Below are positions 26,512 through 33,124 of a DNA stretch of 38,590 nucleotides, piece by piece. Origin of the DNA: Acidobacteriota bacterium (GTDB taxonomy: Bacteria; Acidobacteriota; Vicinamibacteria; Vicinamibacterales; UBA2999); contig JAUSDY010000125.1 of assembly GCA_030650395.1 (NCBI GenBank), forward strand, positions 1 through 38,590. The letters are read 5' to 3'. The notes under the pieces are model-generated. The model saw only the letters and a program-made list of their open reading frames with translations. It was not told the origin of the DNA and searched no databases. The first letter of the stretch is position 1; each line of letters opens with the position of its first letter. The position numbers and the translations under genes are program-made.

Positions 26512-27420
26512 TTACGCGGCGCTCACCTTCTCGTCTTTCTTCTCTTCCTTCTTCTCTTCCTTCTTCTCGTCGATAATTTCCTTCGGCGCCGACTCTTTCC
26601 AGTCGGCCTCAAACACCTGCAACAACTGACGCGCCACCGTCGGGTTGTTGACGATCAGCCCGACCTCACGACGTTTTTCCAGCTCGCCCTTGGCGAGGCT
26701 CTGGCTGCCGACAAACGCGCGCAAGCCGTCGCGCACGATCGCACGAACGTGTAGTCGCATCGGCGCCAGCTTGTATTCGTCGATGCCGTCATGCTTGCCC
26801 TTGACCGAGCCGAGCACGCGGATCCGGACGCCCTTGGCGACGCGCTCTTTGAGCAGCTTGATCATCGCCGGGTCATTGACCTTCTCGTCGTAGATCGCCA
26901 ACTCCTTGCGCGCGCCCTTGATGAAATCGGCGAGCATTGCGCGCGAGGTCTCGGGGCTCACCACCAGGTGCGACTTCGCCGGCACGTACGGCTGTCGCGT
27001 CAGGTCGGCTTCGAACACCTTGGCCGCCTCCTGAACAGCTTTCTTGTCCTTCGTGGAAATGGCGAAGCTGCGGCTCTTGCCGATGTCGAGCTTGGTGAAA
27101 TTGAAACCGAGCAGATGCAGCATCCCGTCGCAGATCATGAGCTTGGCGTGGTAGCGCAACAGGTCGTCGGCGGTGCGTGACACATTCAACCCGGCCGCGA
27201 GCATGCGTTGCTCGAGCTTGCGCAGCTTTGACTCGCCGCCCCGGTTGGTATGCGCAATCAAGGCGCGCACCATGACGCCGCGTTGAACGGCGTCGGCCAG
27301 CGCCTTCTCGACCGGGTTGAGGTCGAAACGGAAGATGACGACGTCGATCGTCTTCTTGGCTTTCTTGATGGCCTCTAGCACCGGCACGATGCCGGCATCG
27401 GGCTGCGTAACCAGCTTCAC
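26512..27420 (-). CDS. phospholipase D-like protein
   Basis: The protein has 302 residues from a GTG start and resembles two-domain PLD/cardiolipin-synthase-like enzymes. The first HKD site is good: LLRYHAKLMICDG (H91, K93, D98). The second is degenerate: MRLHVRAIVRDGLRAFVGSQ has H224 and D231 but Arg in place of Lys. No membrane segment is visible. The C-terminal tail (DEKKEEKKEEKKDEK) is charged and repetitive. It is the last gene of the five-gene island operon; its start lies one base after the stop of the DUF4956 gene. Substrate (phospholipid or nucleic acid) unknown; the changed second motif may reduce activity. Confidence 0.83.
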   Translation of the reverse strand: MKLVTQPDAGIVPVLEAIKKAKKTIDVVIFRFDLNPVEKALADAVQRGVMVRALIAHTNRGGESKLRKLEQRMLAAGLNVSRTADDLLRYHAKLMICDGMLHLLGFNFTKLDIGKSRSFAISTKDKKAVQEAAKVFEADLTRQPYVPAKSHLVVSPETSRAMLADFIKGARKELAIYDEKVNDPAMIKLLKERVAKGVRIRVLGSVKGKHDGIDEYKLAPMRLHVRAIVRDGLRAFVGSQSLAKGELEKRREVGLIVNNPTVARQLLQVFEADWKESAPKEIIDEKKEEKKEEKKDEKVSAA

Positions 27421-27421
27421 G

Positions 27422-28183
27422 TTACTTCGGCACCTTGTCCTTCGACTTCTCGTCCCACACGATCGCGCCCTTGCCCTCCGGCACGAGCGCCATGATTTCG
27501 TTCGAGACCTTGTCGGTCTGCAGCTTGCGCGGCGTCGTCACCTGATACCCAACCTCCTCGGCCGAGGACGCCCGAAGCTCGTAGCGGACCTTGTAGCGGC
27601 GCAAGATCTGCTCGATCTTCGGTTTTAGATCTTGGGTGGCGTCGCCGAGCTTGAGACTGAGCTCGAAGACGCGCGTCTGCGGCTCGAAGCCCTCAAGGAT
27701 CCACAGCGACAGCACCAGGAAGGCGGTGCCGATCGCGGCAAGGCCATACAAGCCGACGCCCGACGCCAGGCCCACCGACAGCGCGCACAGCATGACCACC
27801 GCGTCTTTCGGATCGTCGATCTTCGAGCGATAGCGAATCAGGTTGGCCGCGCCGACGATGCCGAATGCGCGGGCGAGGCTGGAGCCGACCACCAGCATGA
27901 TCAGCGAGCCGACCACCGCGAGGATGATCTGCGTCTGCACGACGGTAGGCTGCCGCGGCGCGGTGGCGCCGCGCCTCGGGCGAAGCGCGAGGGCGGTGCC
28001 CAACAGCGCCGCGAGCGGCAGGCGGATCAACGACGCCAGGACTTCCTCCTGGAGGTTGTCCATCACGCCGGGCAGATCGACTTTGCCCTGCGGTGGCGGC
28101 GGCTGGGTGATCTCCTGGGCGCCCGCGCCGACACTGAGCAGCAGGACGAACAGGCTGAACGTCAAGAAGGCTGAGCGGGTCAT
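27422..28183 (-). CDS. DUF4956 family inner-membrane protein
   Basis: The protein has 253 residues. A signal-like N-terminal helix (FLTFSLFVLLLSVGAGAQ) precedes transmembrane segments (SLIRLPLAALLGTALAL; IILAVVGSLIMLVVGSSLAR; AVVMLCALSVGLASGVGLYG; FLVLSLWILEGF) and the diagnostic loop GAANLIRYRSKIDDPKDAVV. The C-terminus is a soluble alpha/beta domain (ELSLKLGDATQDLKPKIEQI). The family is membrane-bound and of unknown function; it is often encoded beside CotH-type kinase-like and VTC-type polyphosphate proteins in bacteria. Here its neighbours are an exported kinase-like protein (4-base overlap) and a PLD-like protein. Confidence 0.85.
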   Translation of the reverse strand: MTRSAFLTFSLFVLLLSVGAGAQEITQPPPPQGKVDLPGVMDNLQEEVLASLIRLPLAALLGTALALRPRRGATAPRQPTVVQTQIILAVVGSLIMLVVGSSLARAFGIVGAANLIRYRSKIDDPKDAVVMLCALSVGLASGVGLYGLAAIGTAFLVLSLWILEGFEPQTRVFELSLKLGDATQDLKPKIEQILRRYKVRYELRASSAEEVGYQVTTPRKLQTDKVSNEIMALVPEGKGAIVWDEKSKDKVPK

Positions 28184-29184
28184 CTTTCCACCGAGGTTGT
28201 CGCTGTCAATGCCAGCCCTTCCTGAATTTTCGACTTCAGTTTACGAATGTAGCGGTCGCTGGTTTCCTTCGAAAACGCCGCGCCGCGAAACGCATCGTCC
28301 CACTGCCGGTCGGAAATCTTGTCGAGAATCCTGCAGATCCAGATCACGTCCGCCGGCGTGATGTTTTCCATCAGCTCTCTGTGCCGCGCCTGGTAATCGA
28401 ACTGGACGCGCCCGTTATCGACGCCGATAACGAAGCGCTGGCTCTCGAAGTCGTCGACGTTGTTGCGGTTGCCGACCGGCCACGCGGTCTTGCCGAGCGA
28501 TGCGCCGACATCCTGGGCGACGTACCAGCGCGCGGGCGTGAGGCCCTCGACCACGTCGTAGATGCGGTTGTTGGTCTGCTTGATGTCCCAGTTGTTGAGC
28601 AGGAGGTTGGTGATCACCAGGCCCTTGAACTCGCGCGTGCCGAAGAACGGATTCTCGGTCCACGACCAGTCGCCGGCGCTCTTGTGATCGTGGCCGTAGC
28701 GGAACCGCCCGGACAACGGCTTGGCGACCGGGCCGTTCGTCAAGACCCACTCGGGCACGAAGTAAACGATCGGCTGGTGGTAGCCGGCCGCCCACAAGAT
28801 CCGGCTCGACACCACCTCGGTCTGGCCTTCGTCGCCGGTCTTGACGTCCCACTTGCGGCCCTGCGGATCGACGACGTCGTAGCCGGTGCTGTAGCCAACG
28901 GTGTCGATCGCCTTGAACTCGAACGGCGTGGTCGGCGATGGCACGAGCGCCTTGCCGCCGCGCCCGTAGAACAGATCGCGCGACGTGACGTCGCCGGGAT
29001 CCTGCCAGAGCTCGGCGATGTTCGGCTTGCCCTGAGCCGGGTCGAAGGGCCGGGCCTGCGACTTATCGGCCGGCTGCTCCTTCTGCGCCGTCGATTGCGC
29101 GAGGCTGCCTGGCCCGGGAAAACATGCGGCGGTGACCGCGACCAGCACGAAGGCTGCGGACATCCGCCCGAGCCGGCTCTTCAT
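28180..29184 (-). CDS. exported atypical-kinase-like protein A
   Basis: The protein has 334 residues with an N-terminal signal (SAAFVLVAVTAACFPG) that may be a lipoprotein signal (C21). I see an ordered set of kinase-like residues: KWDVKTG (K115), TEVVSSRILWAAGYH (E123), LLLNNWDIKQTNN (D200, N205) and YVAQDVGASLG (D225). This matches the Lys-Glu-Asp-Asn-Asp logic of protein-kinase-like folds such as HipA and FAM20, but overall sequence similarity to those families is not obvious. Protein B (32000-33124) has the same set. It overlaps its neighbours by 4 bases on both sides in a five-gene operon after a phosphatase. The substrate and activity are unknown. A short palindrome codes for residues 45-52. 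Confidence 0.65.
   Translation of the reverse strand: MKSRLGRMSAAFVLVAVTAACFPGPGSLAQSTAQKEQPADKSQARPFDPAQGKPNIAELWQDPGDVTSRDLFYGRGGKALVPSPTTPFEFKAIDTVGYSTGYDVVDPQGRKWDVKTGDEGQTEVVSSRILWAAGYHQPIVYFVPEWVLTNGPVAKPLSGRFRYGHDHKSAGDWSWTENPFFGTREFKGLVITNLLLNNWDIKQTNNRIYDVVEGLTPARWYVAQDVGASLGKTAWPVGNRNNVDDFESQRFVIGVDNGRVQFDYQARHRELMENITPADVIWICRILDKISDRQWDDAFRGAAFSKETSDRYIRKLKSKIQEGLALTATTSVER
29029..29050. repeat. CCCTGAGC/GTCGAAGGG element in kinase-like gene A
   Basis: The 22-base element begins GCCCTGAGC and ends GTCGAAGGGC, with outer arms GCCCT and AGGGC. It is read in frame as ARPFDPAQGKP in the exported linker after the signal peptide. Confidence 0.75.
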
Positions 29185-30083
29185 TGAGTCCCGGCATTCT
29201 GGCGGGTGATTTCTCCGGAGTCGACGCGCTTGCCACTCCGCGAGATCGTCTGGAAGCGCATCACGTCACCATCAAGCTCGACGACCATGAAGCTTTGCTC
29301 CGTGTCGAAACCCTTCGCCGTGAGGTTGCTGCTGCGAATGTCACCCTCGCGAAGCTTGGCGGAGCCACCGGCGGTGAAGTAGTAGATGCCGCCCTGCGGC
29401 TTGACCCGCTCGTAGAAATGCTCGTGGCCCGCGAAGACAACGTTGACGTTGTGCTTCTTGAACAGCGGCTCGATGATGGTGCGCAGATCGACTTCCGAAC
29501 CGTGCGTGGCGCCCGATGAATAGAGCGGGTGGTGGAAGTAGGCGATCTTCCATTTCGAGTTCGACGCCGCGAGCTCTTTCTCCAGCCAGGCCTGCTGATC
29601 CTTGTCCATGTAATTGCTGTCGAGGGCGAAGAACCGCGCGTCCTTCTTCTGGTAGGTGTAGAAGCGCTGGCCATTCATCCCGAACGGTTTGTAGTAACGC
29701 TGGTTGGGGTCGTCGTGATTGCCGAGCGCCGCATAAAACGGGATGTTGGCGTCGAGCAGCGGCTTATAGGGCGTCTCGAACTTCTTCTTGAAATCCTGAG
29801 GGCGCTCCGAGCCGTAGATGTTGTCGCCGAGCATGATGGCGAACTCGTACGGGAACACCGCGTGCGCCTTCCAGGCCTGCACGGCGGTGTCGTACTGCCC
29901 GCGGTCGCCGGTACCGGTGTCGCCGAGCACGAGGAACTTGACCGAGTCCTTGCCGACCGGCGGCGCGGTTTCGCCGGCCGCCGACATCTGCGGCACGCCG
30001 GGGCGCGTCTGGTCTCTGGTGGCCGCCACGATGGCCACCACGGCCGCAAGGATCAACGCAATCGTGATGGTTCTATTTCGCAT
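29181..30083 (-). CDS. exported calcineurin-like (purple acid-type) metallophosphatase A
   Basis: The protein has 300 residues; ATG at 30083, with GTG two codons earlier possible. A hydrophobic N-terminus (ITIALILAAVVAIVAATR) is followed by the metallophosphoesterase signatures in order: FLVLGDTGTGD, IMLGDNIYG, AALGNHDDPN, AYFHHPLYSS and VFAGHEHFYER. All usual metal ligands are present, so it should be active as a phosphatase on an exported substrate. Its stop overlaps the start of kinase-like gene A (ATGA), so the two are translationally coupled. Protein B (31036-32028) is a paralogue with the same motifs. Confidence 0.88.
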   Translation of the reverse strand: MRNRTITIALILAAVVAIVAATRDQTRPGVPQMSAAGETAPPVGKDSVKFLVLGDTGTGDRGQYDTAVQAWKAHAVFPYEFAIMLGDNIYGSERPQDFKKKFETPYKPLLDANIPFYAALGNHDDPNQRYYKPFGMNGQRFYTYQKKDARFFALDSNYMDKDQQAWLEKELAASNSKWKIAYFHHPLYSSGATHGSEVDLRTIIEPLFKKHNVNVVFAGHEHFYERVKPQGGIYYFTAGGSAKLREGDIRSSNLTAKGFDTEQSFMVVELDGDVMRFQTISRSGKRVDSGEITRQNAGTQ

Positions 30084-30104
30084 GCGCACTTCGCCTCTCG
30101 AAAA

Positions 30105-30821
30105 TCAGCTCGGAATCGTCGGCACGACATCGCGCAGGATGTCGACAATCAGGTTCGCCTTGACGTCGCGGAGAATCAGGCTGCGACCGACGAGGCGATA
30201 CTCGAGCTCTGGTGGCAGATCCGGAAGCTTCCGGAGCAGCATGGGCGGGAAGGTCGCCAGTGGAAGCGTGGTCGGGTAGACGGTGTTGATGTCGACCTTC
30301 ATGTTCTTGGGCAGCTCCACGATGATCGCCTTGCGGGCGGCGGCGCTGCGCGTGGCGAAATCGTCCTGCACGATCTTGATGAAATAGGGCTGGTACTCGG
30401 GAGCGAAGATGTCGCCGAGCTTCGCGCCGGCCCGCAGCGTCTGAATGGTCTTGGCCAGCGCCGCTTCGCGTTCGGAGATCTGTGCCGGGTCGTTCGTATT
30501 CTTGAGGTTCGGCACCTTGGTTTCGGCTTCGTTGTGGATCTTGAGGTATTCCTTGATGCGATTGTGGAACTCGAGCGTGGCGCTACCCTGCGCGTTGGCA
30601 GCTGGCTGGCCTGTCGGCGTAGCGGGCGCGACCGTGGCCGGCGAGGGTGAGGCCGGCTGTTGCGGATCCGTGGGCAGCCGTGGCTTGGCGGTTGCGGCAG
30701 CGGGCTTGGCCGGCTTGGCCTGCACTTCCGCGGCGTTGACCGATTCGGGCGCGTTGCGCTGGCAGCCTACGAGTATGGCTGCCGAAAGGAAGACGACCGA
30801 GACCGACTTGAAAATGGTCAT
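30105..30821 (-). CDS. lipoprotein of unknown function, first gene of the island operon
   Basis: With the ATG at 30821 the protein has 238 residues. The signal FKSVSVVFLSAAILVGC carries a lipobox. An alanine/proline-rich linker (PAKPAAATAKPRLPTDPQQP) precedes a folded domain (LEFHNRIKEYLKIHNEAETK; ALAKTIQTLRAGAKLGDIFA; IIVELPKNMKVDINTVYPTT; LILRDVKANLIVDILRDVVP). The end may contain a short peptide segment exposed to the periplasm. The longer frame to 31175 lacks homology and crosses the divergent region. It precedes phosphatase A by about 21 bases. No family is recognised. Confidence 0.75.
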   Translation of the reverse strand: MTIFKSVSVVFLSAAILVGCQRNAPESVNAAEVQAKPAKPAAATAKPRLPTDPQQPASPSPATVAPATPTGQPAANAQGSATLEFHNRIKEYLKIHNEAETKVPNLKNTNDPAQISEREAALAKTIQTLRAGAKLGDIFAPEYQPYFIKIVQDDFATRSAAARKAIIVELPKNMKVDINTVYPTTLPLATFPPMLLRKLPDLPPELEYRLVGRSLILRDVKANLIVDILRDVVPTIPS

Positions 30822-31035
30822 AGCATGCCCTGCTACTACAAGCCCTGTGCCAGAGGATGCACCACCATTAGTTGCGGTAGAGCCGGCGTGGGGCCTGACA
30901 CCAATCATTTTCTGGCGCAATTTCTGGAAATGCAACCCAGCATTCAGGTCCGTGTTACAACGGGCTTTACCCAAAATGGCCCTCGAGTTGCCTAATGGGC
31001 CGTGGTTCGGATTCTGCATGAATTGTGAACGCCAG
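30822..31035. promoter_or_regulatory. divergent intergenic region between the two island arms
   Basis: This 214-base gap separates the divergent starts of the island lipoprotein (minus) and phosphatase B (plus), so it should hold both promoters. It is less GC-rich than the flanking genes. I can point to no clear -35/-10 pair or operator, only a GGGGCCTGACACC stretch that may be a degraded repeat. Confidence 0.35.
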
Positions 31036-32028
31036 ATGATCCGCGTCCTCCTCCTGCTTTCAACGCTTTGGCTGTCGGCCTGCGGCGACCTCTGGGTCAG
31101 CAAAGACACCGCCGCGGCCGCGCAGCGCACCACCCAGGTCGAAGCCCGCGATCTAAAGAATATTTCGGCCGGCACGCTGGCGCTGCCGAACGAGGAGCGT
31201 TCGATTAAGTTTGCGGTGATCGGCGACAGCGGGCGCGGCTCCGCCGAGCAGCACGAGGTTGCCGGGCAGATGGCGGCGTTTCGACAACGCTTCGACTATC
31301 GCTTCGTGCTGATGGCCGGCGACAACATCTACGAGGGCCCGGCCACGGCGGAAGACTACCGCTTGAAGTTCGAAGAGCCATACCAGGCGCTGCTCGATGC
31401 CGGCGTGAAATTCTTCGCGGCCCTCGGCAACCATGACGACCCCCGCCAGGTGAACTACAAGCCGTTCAATATGGACGGGCGCCGCTACTACACCTTCACG
31501 CCGCCGGTCGATTTGATCACGCGGCTCGAGACGCGGGTCCGGTTCTTCGCGCTCGACAGCACCTACCTCGACGGCGAACAAATGCGCTGGCTCAATCACG
31601 AGCTCGAGCAGTCGAATGCGGAATGGAAGATCGCACTGCTCCACCATCCGCTCTACACGTCGGGCCGTTATGGCCTGGCGGCTCGGGGCATTCGCTTTGC
31701 GCTCGAATCCGCGTTCCTGTCAGGCGGCGTCGACGTGGTGTTCTCGGGCCACGAGCACATCTACAATCGGTCGGAACTGCAGAAGGGGATCTTGTACTTC
31801 ATCAGCGGCGGCGCGGGATCGCTTCGGGCCGGCGATGCGAAGCGCTCGCCGCAGATCGCGAAGAGCTTCGATACCGACTACCACTTCATGCTGATCGAGG
31901 TCACCGACAAGGGGTTGTTCTTCCAGGCGATCGATCGCAAGGGCAACACCGTCGACGCCGGCGCGCTGCATCAACCGGGCAAGACCACCGACGCAGCCGC
32001 TACTTCGGGCACGGCGCCCCGTCGCTGA
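31036..32028 (+). CDS. exported calcineurin-like metallophosphatase B (lipoprotein)
   Basis: From the ATG at 31036 the protein has 330 residues; ATG at 31018 is also possible. The signal MIRVLLLLSTLWLSACGDLW has a lipobox (LSAC), so it should be membrane-anchored. The phosphoesterase motifs FAVIGDSGRGS, LMAGDNIYEG, AALGNHDDPR, ALLHHPLYTSG and VFSGHEHIYNR match those of protein A in order. The reading frame stays open far upstream to 30445 but without homology. It converges on kinase-like gene B, overlapping its 3' end by 29 bases. Confidence 0.88.
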   Translation: MIRVLLLLSTLWLSACGDLWVSKDTAAAAQRTTQVEARDLKNISAGTLALPNEERSIKFAVIGDSGRGSAEQHEVAGQMAAFRQRFDYRFVLMAGDNIYEGPATAEDYRLKFEEPYQALLDAGVKFFAALGNHDDPRQVNYKPFNMDGRRYYTFTPPVDLITRLETRVRFFALDSTYLDGEQMRWLNHELEQSNAEWKIALLHHPLYTSGRYGLAARGIRFALESAFLSGGVDVVFSGHEHIYNRSELQKGILYFISGGAGSLRAGDAKRSPQIAKSFDTDYHFMLIEVTDKGLFFQAIDRKGNTVDAGALHQPGKTTDAAATSGTAPRR

Positions 32029-33124
32029 TTTGCCGGACCCTGCTCTTGAAGACGCGGACCCATTCCGACACCGGCTTGGCCGGCGCCGTCAGGAAGCTCT
32101 TCTTCTTGTCGAACCGCGCGCCCTTGAATAGATCCTCGATCTGATCGTCGGACAACTGTTCGAGCAGCGACGCCAAATGGCGGCGGCCCGCCTCGGTGAC
32201 TTGAACCGGCTTGAAGGTAGCGCCCTCATACGGCAGGCTCTCCATGGTGGTAACACACGTCTCGCGATTGCCCCAGATCGGGGCGACCTGCCAGCCGCTC
32301 AGGTCGACCTTGCGCGGGCCGAAAGCGCCGCCAACATCCTGCAGCATCGCTAACGGTTTCTCGCAGCGCCCGCCCTCGGGCCAGTCTTGTTGCGAGAGGC
32401 AGACAAGGCGCTGGTTTTCAGACTTGTTGTCCCAGTGGGCGATGAATACCGCGAGCAAGCGCAGCGCGTCGACGTGGGCCCGCGGTGCCCCGCCTTTGGC
32501 TTCGTCGATTTGATCCAGCTCGTGGAATGCCCAGCCCTCGAGTTTGCCGCTTTCGATGGCGCGCGCGGGATGCTTGCGCTCGACGAGCGCCCATTCGAAG
32601 TCTTCGAACGTGTCGTAATTGACCAGCTTGCTGTAGAGACCTTCAGCCTTGGTGAAATCCACGGCCTTCATCGTGATGAACGGCTCCTTGGGGCATCCGT
32701 AGCAGCGGACGTGTTGGTAGAGCGTCACCGTGTCGCTACCAAAGCCAAGCGCGCTCAACAGCCGCGACGCGGCGATCTCTGAAGGAATCTCCGGCGTGCG
32801 GCCGTACTTCACGCGGAGGCGCTCGCCGGAATCGAGCGTGCAATCGAATTTCGGCGAGGTGCCGCTCGGGGCGTTGAGAATGAACTTGCACGCAATCGAA
32901 TCCGGCTGGTCCAACGCCGGGCCAAGACTGGCTTTCGCGATCTCAACGGTGGGCTTTTGCCACACGGCCGCGCGCCCGAGCGCGTCGGCGCGCTCCTCCT
33001 GGCCGACGTCCTTCTTGGTCGGCGCGGAGGAGGTTTGCGCGGCCGGCCGCTCGGCCGCGCGGCTCGCCATCACCACCACCACCACCACGGCCGTAACAAT
33101 CACGAGCCATCGGCTGATTCGCAT
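32000..33124 (-). CDS. exported atypical-kinase-like protein B
   Basis: The protein has 374 residues and begins with a signal anchor (RWLVIVTAVVVVVVMASRA). The putative kinase-like core starts with SPKFDCTLDSGERLRVKYG (K106), then PSEIAASRLLSALGFG (E116), FIAHWDNKSENQRL (D232, N237) and AMLQDVGGAFGP (D263). The WD-x-K-x-x-N and QDVG motifs are shared with protein A (28180-29184). It differs by an extended middle region and several cysteines (HVRCYGCPKEPF) that may form disulfides. The length and order suit a small atypical kinase fold; catalytic activity is inferred only. It is convergent with phosphatase B. No named family is recognised. Confidence 0.65.
   Translation of the reverse strand: MRISRWLVIVTAVVVVVVMASRAAERPAAQTSSAPTKKDVGQEERADALGRAAVWQKPTVEIAKASLGPALDQPDSIACKFILNAPSGTSPKFDCTLDSGERLRVKYGRTPEIPSEIAASRLLSALGFGSDTVTLYQHVRCYGCPKEPFITMKAVDFTKAEGLYSKLVNYDTFEDFEWALVERKHPARAIESGKLEGWAFHELDQIDEAKGGAPRAHVDALRLLAVFIAHWDNKSENQRLVCLSQQDWPEGGRCEKPLAMLQDVGGAFGPRKVDLSGWQVAPIWGNRETCVTTMESLPYEGATFKPVQVTEAGRRHLASLLEQLSDDQIEDLFKGARFDKKKSFLTAPAKPVSEWVRVFKSRVRQISDGAPCPK

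Follow-up and report, generated by a model that had tools for sequence, protein, structure and literature searches.

Few secreted bacterial kinases are known, and how such enzymes obtain a phosphate donor outside the cell bears on the locus described here. Vertebrates pair the secretory kinase Fam20C with TRAP (a TRAP/ACP5-type phosphatase). In bacteria, CotH is another secreted kinase. As described in PMC7112168, genes for CotH, a polyphosphate polymerase, DUF4956 and DUF4832 adjoin Gram-positive Pel clusters, and the authors suggest for this CotH set a regulation of Pel by phosphorylation. Here we analyse a 38,590-nucleotide stretch of DNA from an Acidobacteriota bacterium (assembly GCA_030650395.1, contig JAUSDY010000125.1, positions 1 to 38,590; hereafter the window), in which two kinase-like proteins, A and B, each lie beside a purple-acid-type phosphatase, A being also followed by a DUF4956 membrane protein and a PLD-like protein. 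We found that the family to which A and B belong alternates with CotH at DUF4956, and that polyphosphate kinase 1 (PPK1) or a PPK1-like PLD protein replaces the polymerase VTC.

Two kinase families alternate at DUF4956

The window belongs to a genome (G000, contig C35) that is 98% complete in 180 contigs. Within a sample of 297 Acidobacteriota genomes, the 54 with a match to the kinase family or to DUF4956 were searched for VTC, PPK1, CotH, the kinase profile and the PLD-like protein. Neighbours within 5 kb were counted for 48 DUF4956-like genes and for 73 kinase genes scoring above 200 bits (26 matches at or below 69 bits were left out), split matches being merged for CotH (41 to 39) and VTC (16 to 15). 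Fifteen DUF4956-like genes, from eight families of genomes, lie near the new kinase and 19, from eleven families, near CotH, where the chance expectations are 0.16 and 0.15, respectively. None lies near both, which has a P of 7e-5 if the two are independent, a value to be taken as a guide only since the genomes are related.

CotH goes with VTC and the new kinase with PPK1, and both go with the PLD-like protein. DUF4956 is close to 12 of the 15 VTC genes, CotH to 11 and the new kinase to none, while the 44 PPK1 genes include five near the new kinase, three near DUF4956 and none near CotH. Most PPK1 genes are therefore found at other sites; the module points to PPK1, whereas PPK1 does not point to the module. 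The PLD-like protein, with 41 genes, is found near the kinase in 20 cases, near CotH and DUF4956 in eight, near DUF4956 alone in one, and near none of these in 12. In this tally, for which only the five PPK1 genes near a kinase were used (the three near DUF4956 among them, none near CotH), two of PLD, VTC and PPK1 never occur together within 5 kb of any DUF4956, kinase or CotH gene, and none of the three is present at 45/73 kinase genes and 19/39 CotH genes. The alternation ties both kinases to polyphosphate polymerases, and a second kinase family alternating with CotH gives DUF4956 a testable role.

A scan of one genome per species gave 146 relatives of the kinase, the best 80 of which correspond to 78 loci (L061-L138), covered up to 7 kb on each side; some of these come from closely related genomes, and the counts are therefore not independent of one another. 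Of the 78 loci, 23 contain PPK1, 20 DUF4956, 16 an MsbA-like ABC exporter, 14 a phosphatase and 14 a PLD-like protein. All PPK1 and DUF4956 genes of these loci share the strand of the kinase, and in 16 of the 23 loci with PPK1 no more than about 150 bases separate that gene from the open frame of the kinase; these loci belong to Pyrinomonadaceae or are simply labelled Acidobacteria. The PPK1 of L076 is genuine: the four PPK1 domains are all there, and it scores 859.6 bits (cut-off 465.85). Other loci (Terriglobia, Bryobacterales, Acidobacteria) combine the kinase with PLD, the MsbA-like exporter and the phosphatase, in varying order and strands, and many of the 78 have none of these partners in the DNA covered.

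The window's genome carries both versions of the module, the new kinase in the window and CotH on contig C107, and offers a natural comparison between them. On C107 (L169, 1414-6992) are found a divergent phosphatase, a STAS-DUF4956 frame, a PLD-like protein, a phosphate-selective porin (PF07396, 127 bits) and CotH (PF08757, 138 bits); the VTC profile has no match in this genome. A thymidylate-kinase-type P-loop gene (PF02223) is located near this CotH-DUF4956 module (L169:91-843), and another adjoins the kinase in genome G028 (L186:2575-3252).

With respect to the CotH-DUF4956-polymerase module, the window presents a putative secreted kinase beside DUF4956, as do the neighbourhoods of the 15 DUF4956-like genes above; in the clusters of the new family, VTC is replaced by PPK1 or by the PLD-like protein. 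Like CotH (PF08757), the new family has a predicted protein-kinase-like (PKL) fold preceded by a leader; both adjoin DUF4956 and a polyphosphate polymerase, and a PLD-like homologue adjoins CotH in eight loci. Unlike CotH, the new family gives no match to the Pfam CotH model, neither for A and B at E 1 nor for any of 49 family members at E 10.

Gene organization of the locus

All genes of the two sets are intact reading frames, at the coordinates assigned to them in an earlier sequence-only reading of the window:

32000..33124, minus strand: kinase-like protein B, 374 aa (K106, E112/E116, D232, N237, D263-G265), with an N-terminal hydrophobic segment
31036..32028, plus strand: phosphatase B, of the purple-acid-phosphatase type, a probable lipoprotein with LSAC close to its N terminus and a start taken from the sequence; PF00149 2.4e-17, metal motifs complete
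30105..30821, minus strand: lipoprotein with an LVGC lipobox, conserved phosphatase partner whose homologues adjoin the phosphatase in relatives
29181..30089, minus strand: phosphatase A, purple-acid-phosphatase/TRAP type with GDNIY; PF00149 4.8e-20, 1qhw E 2e-12
28180..29184, minus strand: kinase-like protein A, 334 aa (K115, E119/E123, D200, N205, D225-G227), with invariant columns in alignment A3 and an AlphaFold model
27422..28183, minus strand: DUF4956/MgtC-like membrane protein; PF16316 and PF02308 above cut-offs
26512..27420, minus strand: PLD-like protein of two domains, similar to the catalytic C-terminal half of PPK1; PF13091 9.7e-28, NF003925 5.3e-10 over 17-298

The lipoprotein, phosphatase A, kinase-like A, DUF4956 and PLD-like genes form an operon on the minus strand (30821 to 26512), with intergenic gaps of 15, -4, -4 and 1 bases, in that order, and both overlaps being ATGA. 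It is faced by the other pair, in which kinase-like B (minus strand, end at 32000) and phosphatase B (plus strand, end at 32028) are convergent and overlap by 29 bases. The tight five-gene operon with translational coupling and the facing convergent pair described by the sequence-only reading are thus both present. The DUF4956 protein exceeds the cut-offs of PF16316 (32.2 bits against 30.6) and of PF02308, the MgtC family (33.3 bits against 31.4).

A conserved family of deep paralogues

A and B are homologous, with a BLASTP E of 6e-6 (single comparison) and 24% identity over 160 columns. Neither has a family in Pfam or NCBIfam, where nothing significant was obtained, a lone match to B (E 0.27) being noise, and the kinase queries matched no kinase among PDB sequences. 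A search of the literature on PKL families, VTC and MgtC, CotH and Acidobacteria, and secreted kinases, judged by the titles and starts of abstracts among the papers listed, gave no description of the family. It adds to the PKL families one that has no name in the Pfam and NCBIfam releases searched, and it may figure in the KINtaro family list.

The residue set that the sequence-only reading had noted in the two proteins is real and extends to the family. Of 51 distinct frames of at least 200 aa (from 64 matches; A and B are among them), all 51 have the Lys, the first of the two Glu, the Asp of catalysis and both the Asp and the Gly of DxG; the second Glu is present in 50/51, the Lys of D-x-K in 45/51 and the Asn in 42/51, the other nine members (seven B-type, two A-type) having Gln; A and B themselves have Asn. 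The Lys, Glu, Asp and DxG are likewise invariant in alignment A3, which holds 85 rows including A and B, without members in long frames, one fragment and near-copies, and whose invariant columns are P82, K115, E119, G134, D200, N205, D225, G227, G231 and Q294 in the numbering of A. The Glu placed 8-10 residues after the Lys needs a correction: it does occur in nearly all members, but two Glu follow the Lys, at +4 and +8 in A and at +6 and +10 in B, and the invariant one is the first. Judging from these alignments, such an ordered catalytic set is not due to chance.

The sequence-only reading had also taken the two kinase-phosphatase pairs as the product of a duplication, and this finds no support as a recent or local event. 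In a tree of 72 rows (16 B-type, two window rows that duplicate two others, and 54 additional ones, of which 20 are a random draw), A-type and B-type members are separated by one branch with an SH-aLRT of 100, although the tree's own check warns of meeting long branches, and both groups are represented in more than one family of genomes, several in each case. Moreover, the two kinases are about 22% identical and the two phosphatases 47%, so that a single duplication of the kinase-phosphatase unit is unlikely. A recent tandem duplication of the pair is rejected on the depth of the two groups together with the far greater divergence of the kinases. By sequence, a single family contains A and B as deep paralogues.

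Predicted fold

The AlphaFold model of A has a mean pLDDT of 84.7 and a pTM of 0.81, and that of B a pLDDT of 74.2 and a pTM of 0.75, with weak stretches of which the longest is 271-296; because mostly A-type sequences went into the alignment behind the B model, this model is only partly independent as a test of the fold. The top match of both is CtkA of Helicobacter pylori (A: Z 14.2 over 217 residues, rmsd 4.5; B: Z 13.0 over 231 residues). For A it is followed by PI4KII (12.4), Fam20 (12.2), HipT (11.2), actin-fragmin kinase (10.8), HipA (10.7) and CotH (10.6), and for B by Golgi casein kinase, a Fam20 (12.3), PI4KII (11.8) and CotH (11.6). The CotH structures concerned are 5jd9/5jda, and several other PKL families match equally well or better. 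With Foldseek, the best E is 3.7e-5 for A and 1.5e-4 for B, and TM-scores are low, the best rows having 0.46 and 0.33 by query length.

The A model places K115 on a strand and E119/E123 on the helix that follows it; D200 is in a loop after a helix, N205 precedes a strand and D225-G227 follows one. As modelled, this order of residues is that of a kinase active site. By their predicted bilobed fold and their Lys, Glu, Asp, Asn and Asp in canonical order, A and B fit the PKL superfamily. The kinase reading of the earlier analysis thereby gains support at the level of modelled fold and of conservation, the Lys, Asp and DxG being kept family-wide. Neither of the two outcomes that this reading had named as refuting it, predicted structures lacking the bilobed fold and homologues that do not conserve these residues, was observed.

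The nearest described kinases nevertheless remain remote. CtkA is only 11-14% identical over aligned residues and differs by the leader segment of the new family. The resemblance to Fam20 concerns a putative exported PKL kinase whose partner phosphatase is nearest, in the PDB, to the TRAP type; identity in the fold alignments is about 8-14%, there is no sequence match, and Pfam scans of A, B and 49 members detected no Fam20 family.

Phosphatases and their lipoprotein partner

The adjoining phosphatases had been credited with complete metal motifs, and indeed both have GDxG, GDNIY, GNHD, HHPLY and GHEH, the full purple-acid set. For phosphatase A, the nearest enzymes of known structure belong to the TRAP-type purple acid phosphatases (1qhw, E 2e-12). 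The window enzymes share with this group PF00149, GDxG, GDNIY, GNHD, HHP and GHEH as well as the best PDB matches, and differ in being of a bacterial type that often has a dedicated lipoprotein partner. Among 20 phosphatases checked, both window ones included, all five motif patterns were found in 11, GNHD and GHxH in 20/20 and GDxxY in 18/20; 8 of the 12 misses concern a narrowly written GDxG pattern. A homologue of the lipoprotein adjoins the phosphatase in 11 of the 14 phosphatase loci of L061-L138, and in L033 and L035 lipoprotein and phosphatase share one open frame.

A strong purple-acid-phosphatase homologue is found within 5 kb of 17/73 kinase genes (seven weak phosphatase matches were shown and left uncounted), which supports the kinase-phosphatase link that had been proposed from the two pairs in the window. 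For an earlier neighbour set, phosphatases were represented by 47 matches with E <1e-50 taken from a longer listing, and kinases by the rows of the A and B searches without three fragments and 13 more rows (one split piece and 12 weak ones). At L175:4459-5103, in a cluster of kinase, PPK1 and DUF4956, a different calcineurin-like phosphatase separates the kinase from PPK1.

A PLD-like protein resembling the catalytic half of PPK1

The best curated models for the PLD-like protein are DrmC and NucT, and PPK1 models also match, as listed above, over residues 17-298. Such PPK1-model matches were obtained for two of four further PLD-like relatives, and a fifth, from the CotH contig, has none. A profile of 30 PLD-like relatives aligns with PPK1 over 271 columns that cover both C domains, with a pairwise probability of 97.4. 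H91 and H224, at least 90% conserved in the 30 rows, are aligned with His residues that we take to be the catalytic ones of PPK1, and the second PLD-like motif is HxR, the same as in the aligned PPK1.

Nevertheless, the protein falls short of PPK1: only the C-terminal half aligns, the N-terminal and middle PPK domains of PPK1 being absent, and the score is 38.1 bits against a cut-off of 707. HKD proteins all share the fold and the two His, and PPK1 is the only PLD-type family that was compared. An action of the PLD-like protein on polyphosphate is consequently suggested by its sequence as a lead, not as a proof.

Cellular location

Export had been proposed for the kinase-like proteins and the phosphatases, and for the kinases hydropathy, applied to stop-to-stop frames, is the evidence that supports it. 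In 84/85 rows of alignment A3 and in 49/49 of alignment A1, from which two long-frame members (L015, L019) are omitted, a hydrophobic segment is found ahead of the kinase core. A first count, later redone on these alignments, had located the core in 93 of 135 proteins, 91 of them with a leader. By a similar measure, a leader is seen in 2/22 PPK1 proteins (first 90 residues) and 0/30 PLD-like proteins (residues ahead of the conserved motif). Because these leader counts differ, the kinase domain is probably outside the cytoplasm and the PLD-like protein probably inside the cell. Lipobox-like sequences are present in the lipoprotein and in phosphatase B, and phosphatase A has a hydrophobic N terminus.

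Proposed function and alternatives

We consider it rather probable that the locus is an extracytoplasmic phosphorylation/dephosphorylation module, linked to polyphosphate, in which the new PKL family stands in for CotH. A and B would be exported or membrane-anchored PKL kinases, each beside an exported purple-acid-type phosphatase. Following the usual PKL mechanism, the Lys and Glu would hold the nucleotide, the Asp of WDxK would be catalytic, and the Asn and the Asp of DxG would bind metal. The kinase may phosphorylate a surface or periplasmic target from which the phosphatase would take the phosphate off. Around DUF4956, the new family would fill the place held elsewhere by CotH, and the cytoplasmic and membrane half of the module would consist of DUF4956 and a polyphosphate-type polymerase, which may be VTC, PPK1 or possibly the PPK1-like PLD protein.

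Several observations weigh against this reading. No free ATP is expected beyond the cytoplasm, and PPK1 is a cytoplasmic enzyme, so that an outside kinase would face a phosphate-donor problem. The Gln that replaces Asn in 9/51 members departs from the canonical metal-binding set. The associations are also far from universal: 14/48 DUF4956-like genes are near neither kinase; at 42/73 kinase genes DUF4956, PPK1 and strong phosphatase homologues are all absent within 5 kb, the other 31 having one of them; 45/73 have neither PLD nor PPK1 at that distance; and, within the DNA covered, 55/78 loci are without PPK1 and 58/78 without DUF4956. The counts moreover ignore the relatedness of the genomes. 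In the sister genome G167 (L174, G167:C76, 153-5592), B, phosphatase B, the lipoprotein, phosphatase A, DUF4956 and PLD are found, with no kinase between phosphatase A and DUF4956, and the operon can therefore exist without kinase A. Finally, the hhalign comparison of the kinase profile with CotH is not significant (probability 0.5-1.1%). For 18 CotH proteins from 20 stretches, E was 0.11 and 0.048, against 0.13-0.83 for the phosphatase, PLD and PPK1 profiles, and the best register sets D200, NN and D225 on the CotH Asp, NN and Asp, which is no evidence by itself.

An envelope lipid or glycan kinase is the likeliest of the alternatives, though we regard it as unlikely. The target would be a lipid, lipid A or an exopolysaccharide rather than a protein, and the phosphatase and PLD would remodel the same molecule. 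PI4KII phosphorylates a lipid and FAM20B a sugar, and PI4KII is among the best fold matches of both models (Z 12.4 and 11.8), but the fold cannot separate lipid from protein kinases. The MsbA-like ABC exporter near the kinase in 16/78 loci, often with PLD and phosphatase, is consistent with such a target, as is the adjacency of CotH-DUF4956 sets to Pel exopolysaccharide clusters reported in PMC7112168; however, no ABC exporter or glycosyltransferase was found among the ten window proteins scanned, which lie between 25.7 and 34.5 kb.

It is distinctly less probable that the family consists of non-phosphotransfer PKL enzymes or pseudokinases, carrying out AMPylation or glutamylation or acting only as nucleotide-binding regulators. 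PKL folds with other chemistry exist, according to PMC10870513, and the loss of the metal-binding Asn in the Gln-bearing members would agree with a change of activity. On the other hand, no member lacks the Lys, the first Glu, the catalytic Asp or the Asp of DxG, which is what active enzymes would show, A and B retain the Asn, and a frequent phosphatase neighbour fits a phosphate mark.

Equally doubtful is a fully polyphosphate-fed surface phosphorylation, in which a polymerase (PPK1, VTC or the PLD-like protein) and DUF4956 would make polyphosphate and move it through the membrane, the kinase would draw on it as phosphate donor, directly or via a nucleotide, in a place devoid of ATP, and the purple acid phosphatase would reverse the reaction. 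On this reading, polyphosphate would have in the PLD-like protein a minimal polymerase of a new kind, and a single module could take either CotH or the new family as its kinase.

It is very improbable that the family consists of cytoplasmic toxin kinases of the HipA type, next to which the phosphatase would be a house-keeping gene: the fold matches to HipT and HipA (Z 11.2 and 10.7) and a single sub-threshold HipA_C match among 49 members (E 0.057) are set against the leaders, the lack of any HipA Pfam match of note and the exported-looking neighbours.

Distribution and further members of the family

At E 0.001, the B query matches 18 of the 297 Acidobacteriota genomes and the A query 33, the weaker B-query matches being A-type members. 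The 78 loci, which hold the best 80 of the 146 relatives, all come from Acidobacteria/Acidobacteriota or lineages thereof, with the sole exception of L119, labelled only 'bacterium'. Plasmids gave no match to the kinase family, and viral contigs gave 21 pattern matches, none of them a relative.

The 26 weak kinase-profile matches (at most 69 bits; for example G137:C154, G092:C45 and G269:C21) are mostly in longer frames, of about 500-1060 aa, and perhaps represent a third, larger branch of the family. Members are also embedded in far longer frames at L093:1055-3787, L128:1930-3996, L019:1309-3534 and L015:1153-3276; the frame of L093, the one of the four that was scanned, showed no Pfam domain. 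Tandem pairs of family members, on one strand and in adjacent or overlapping frames, occur at L137:5959-7999, L132:1398-3512, L082:5983-7990 and L062:6947-8994.

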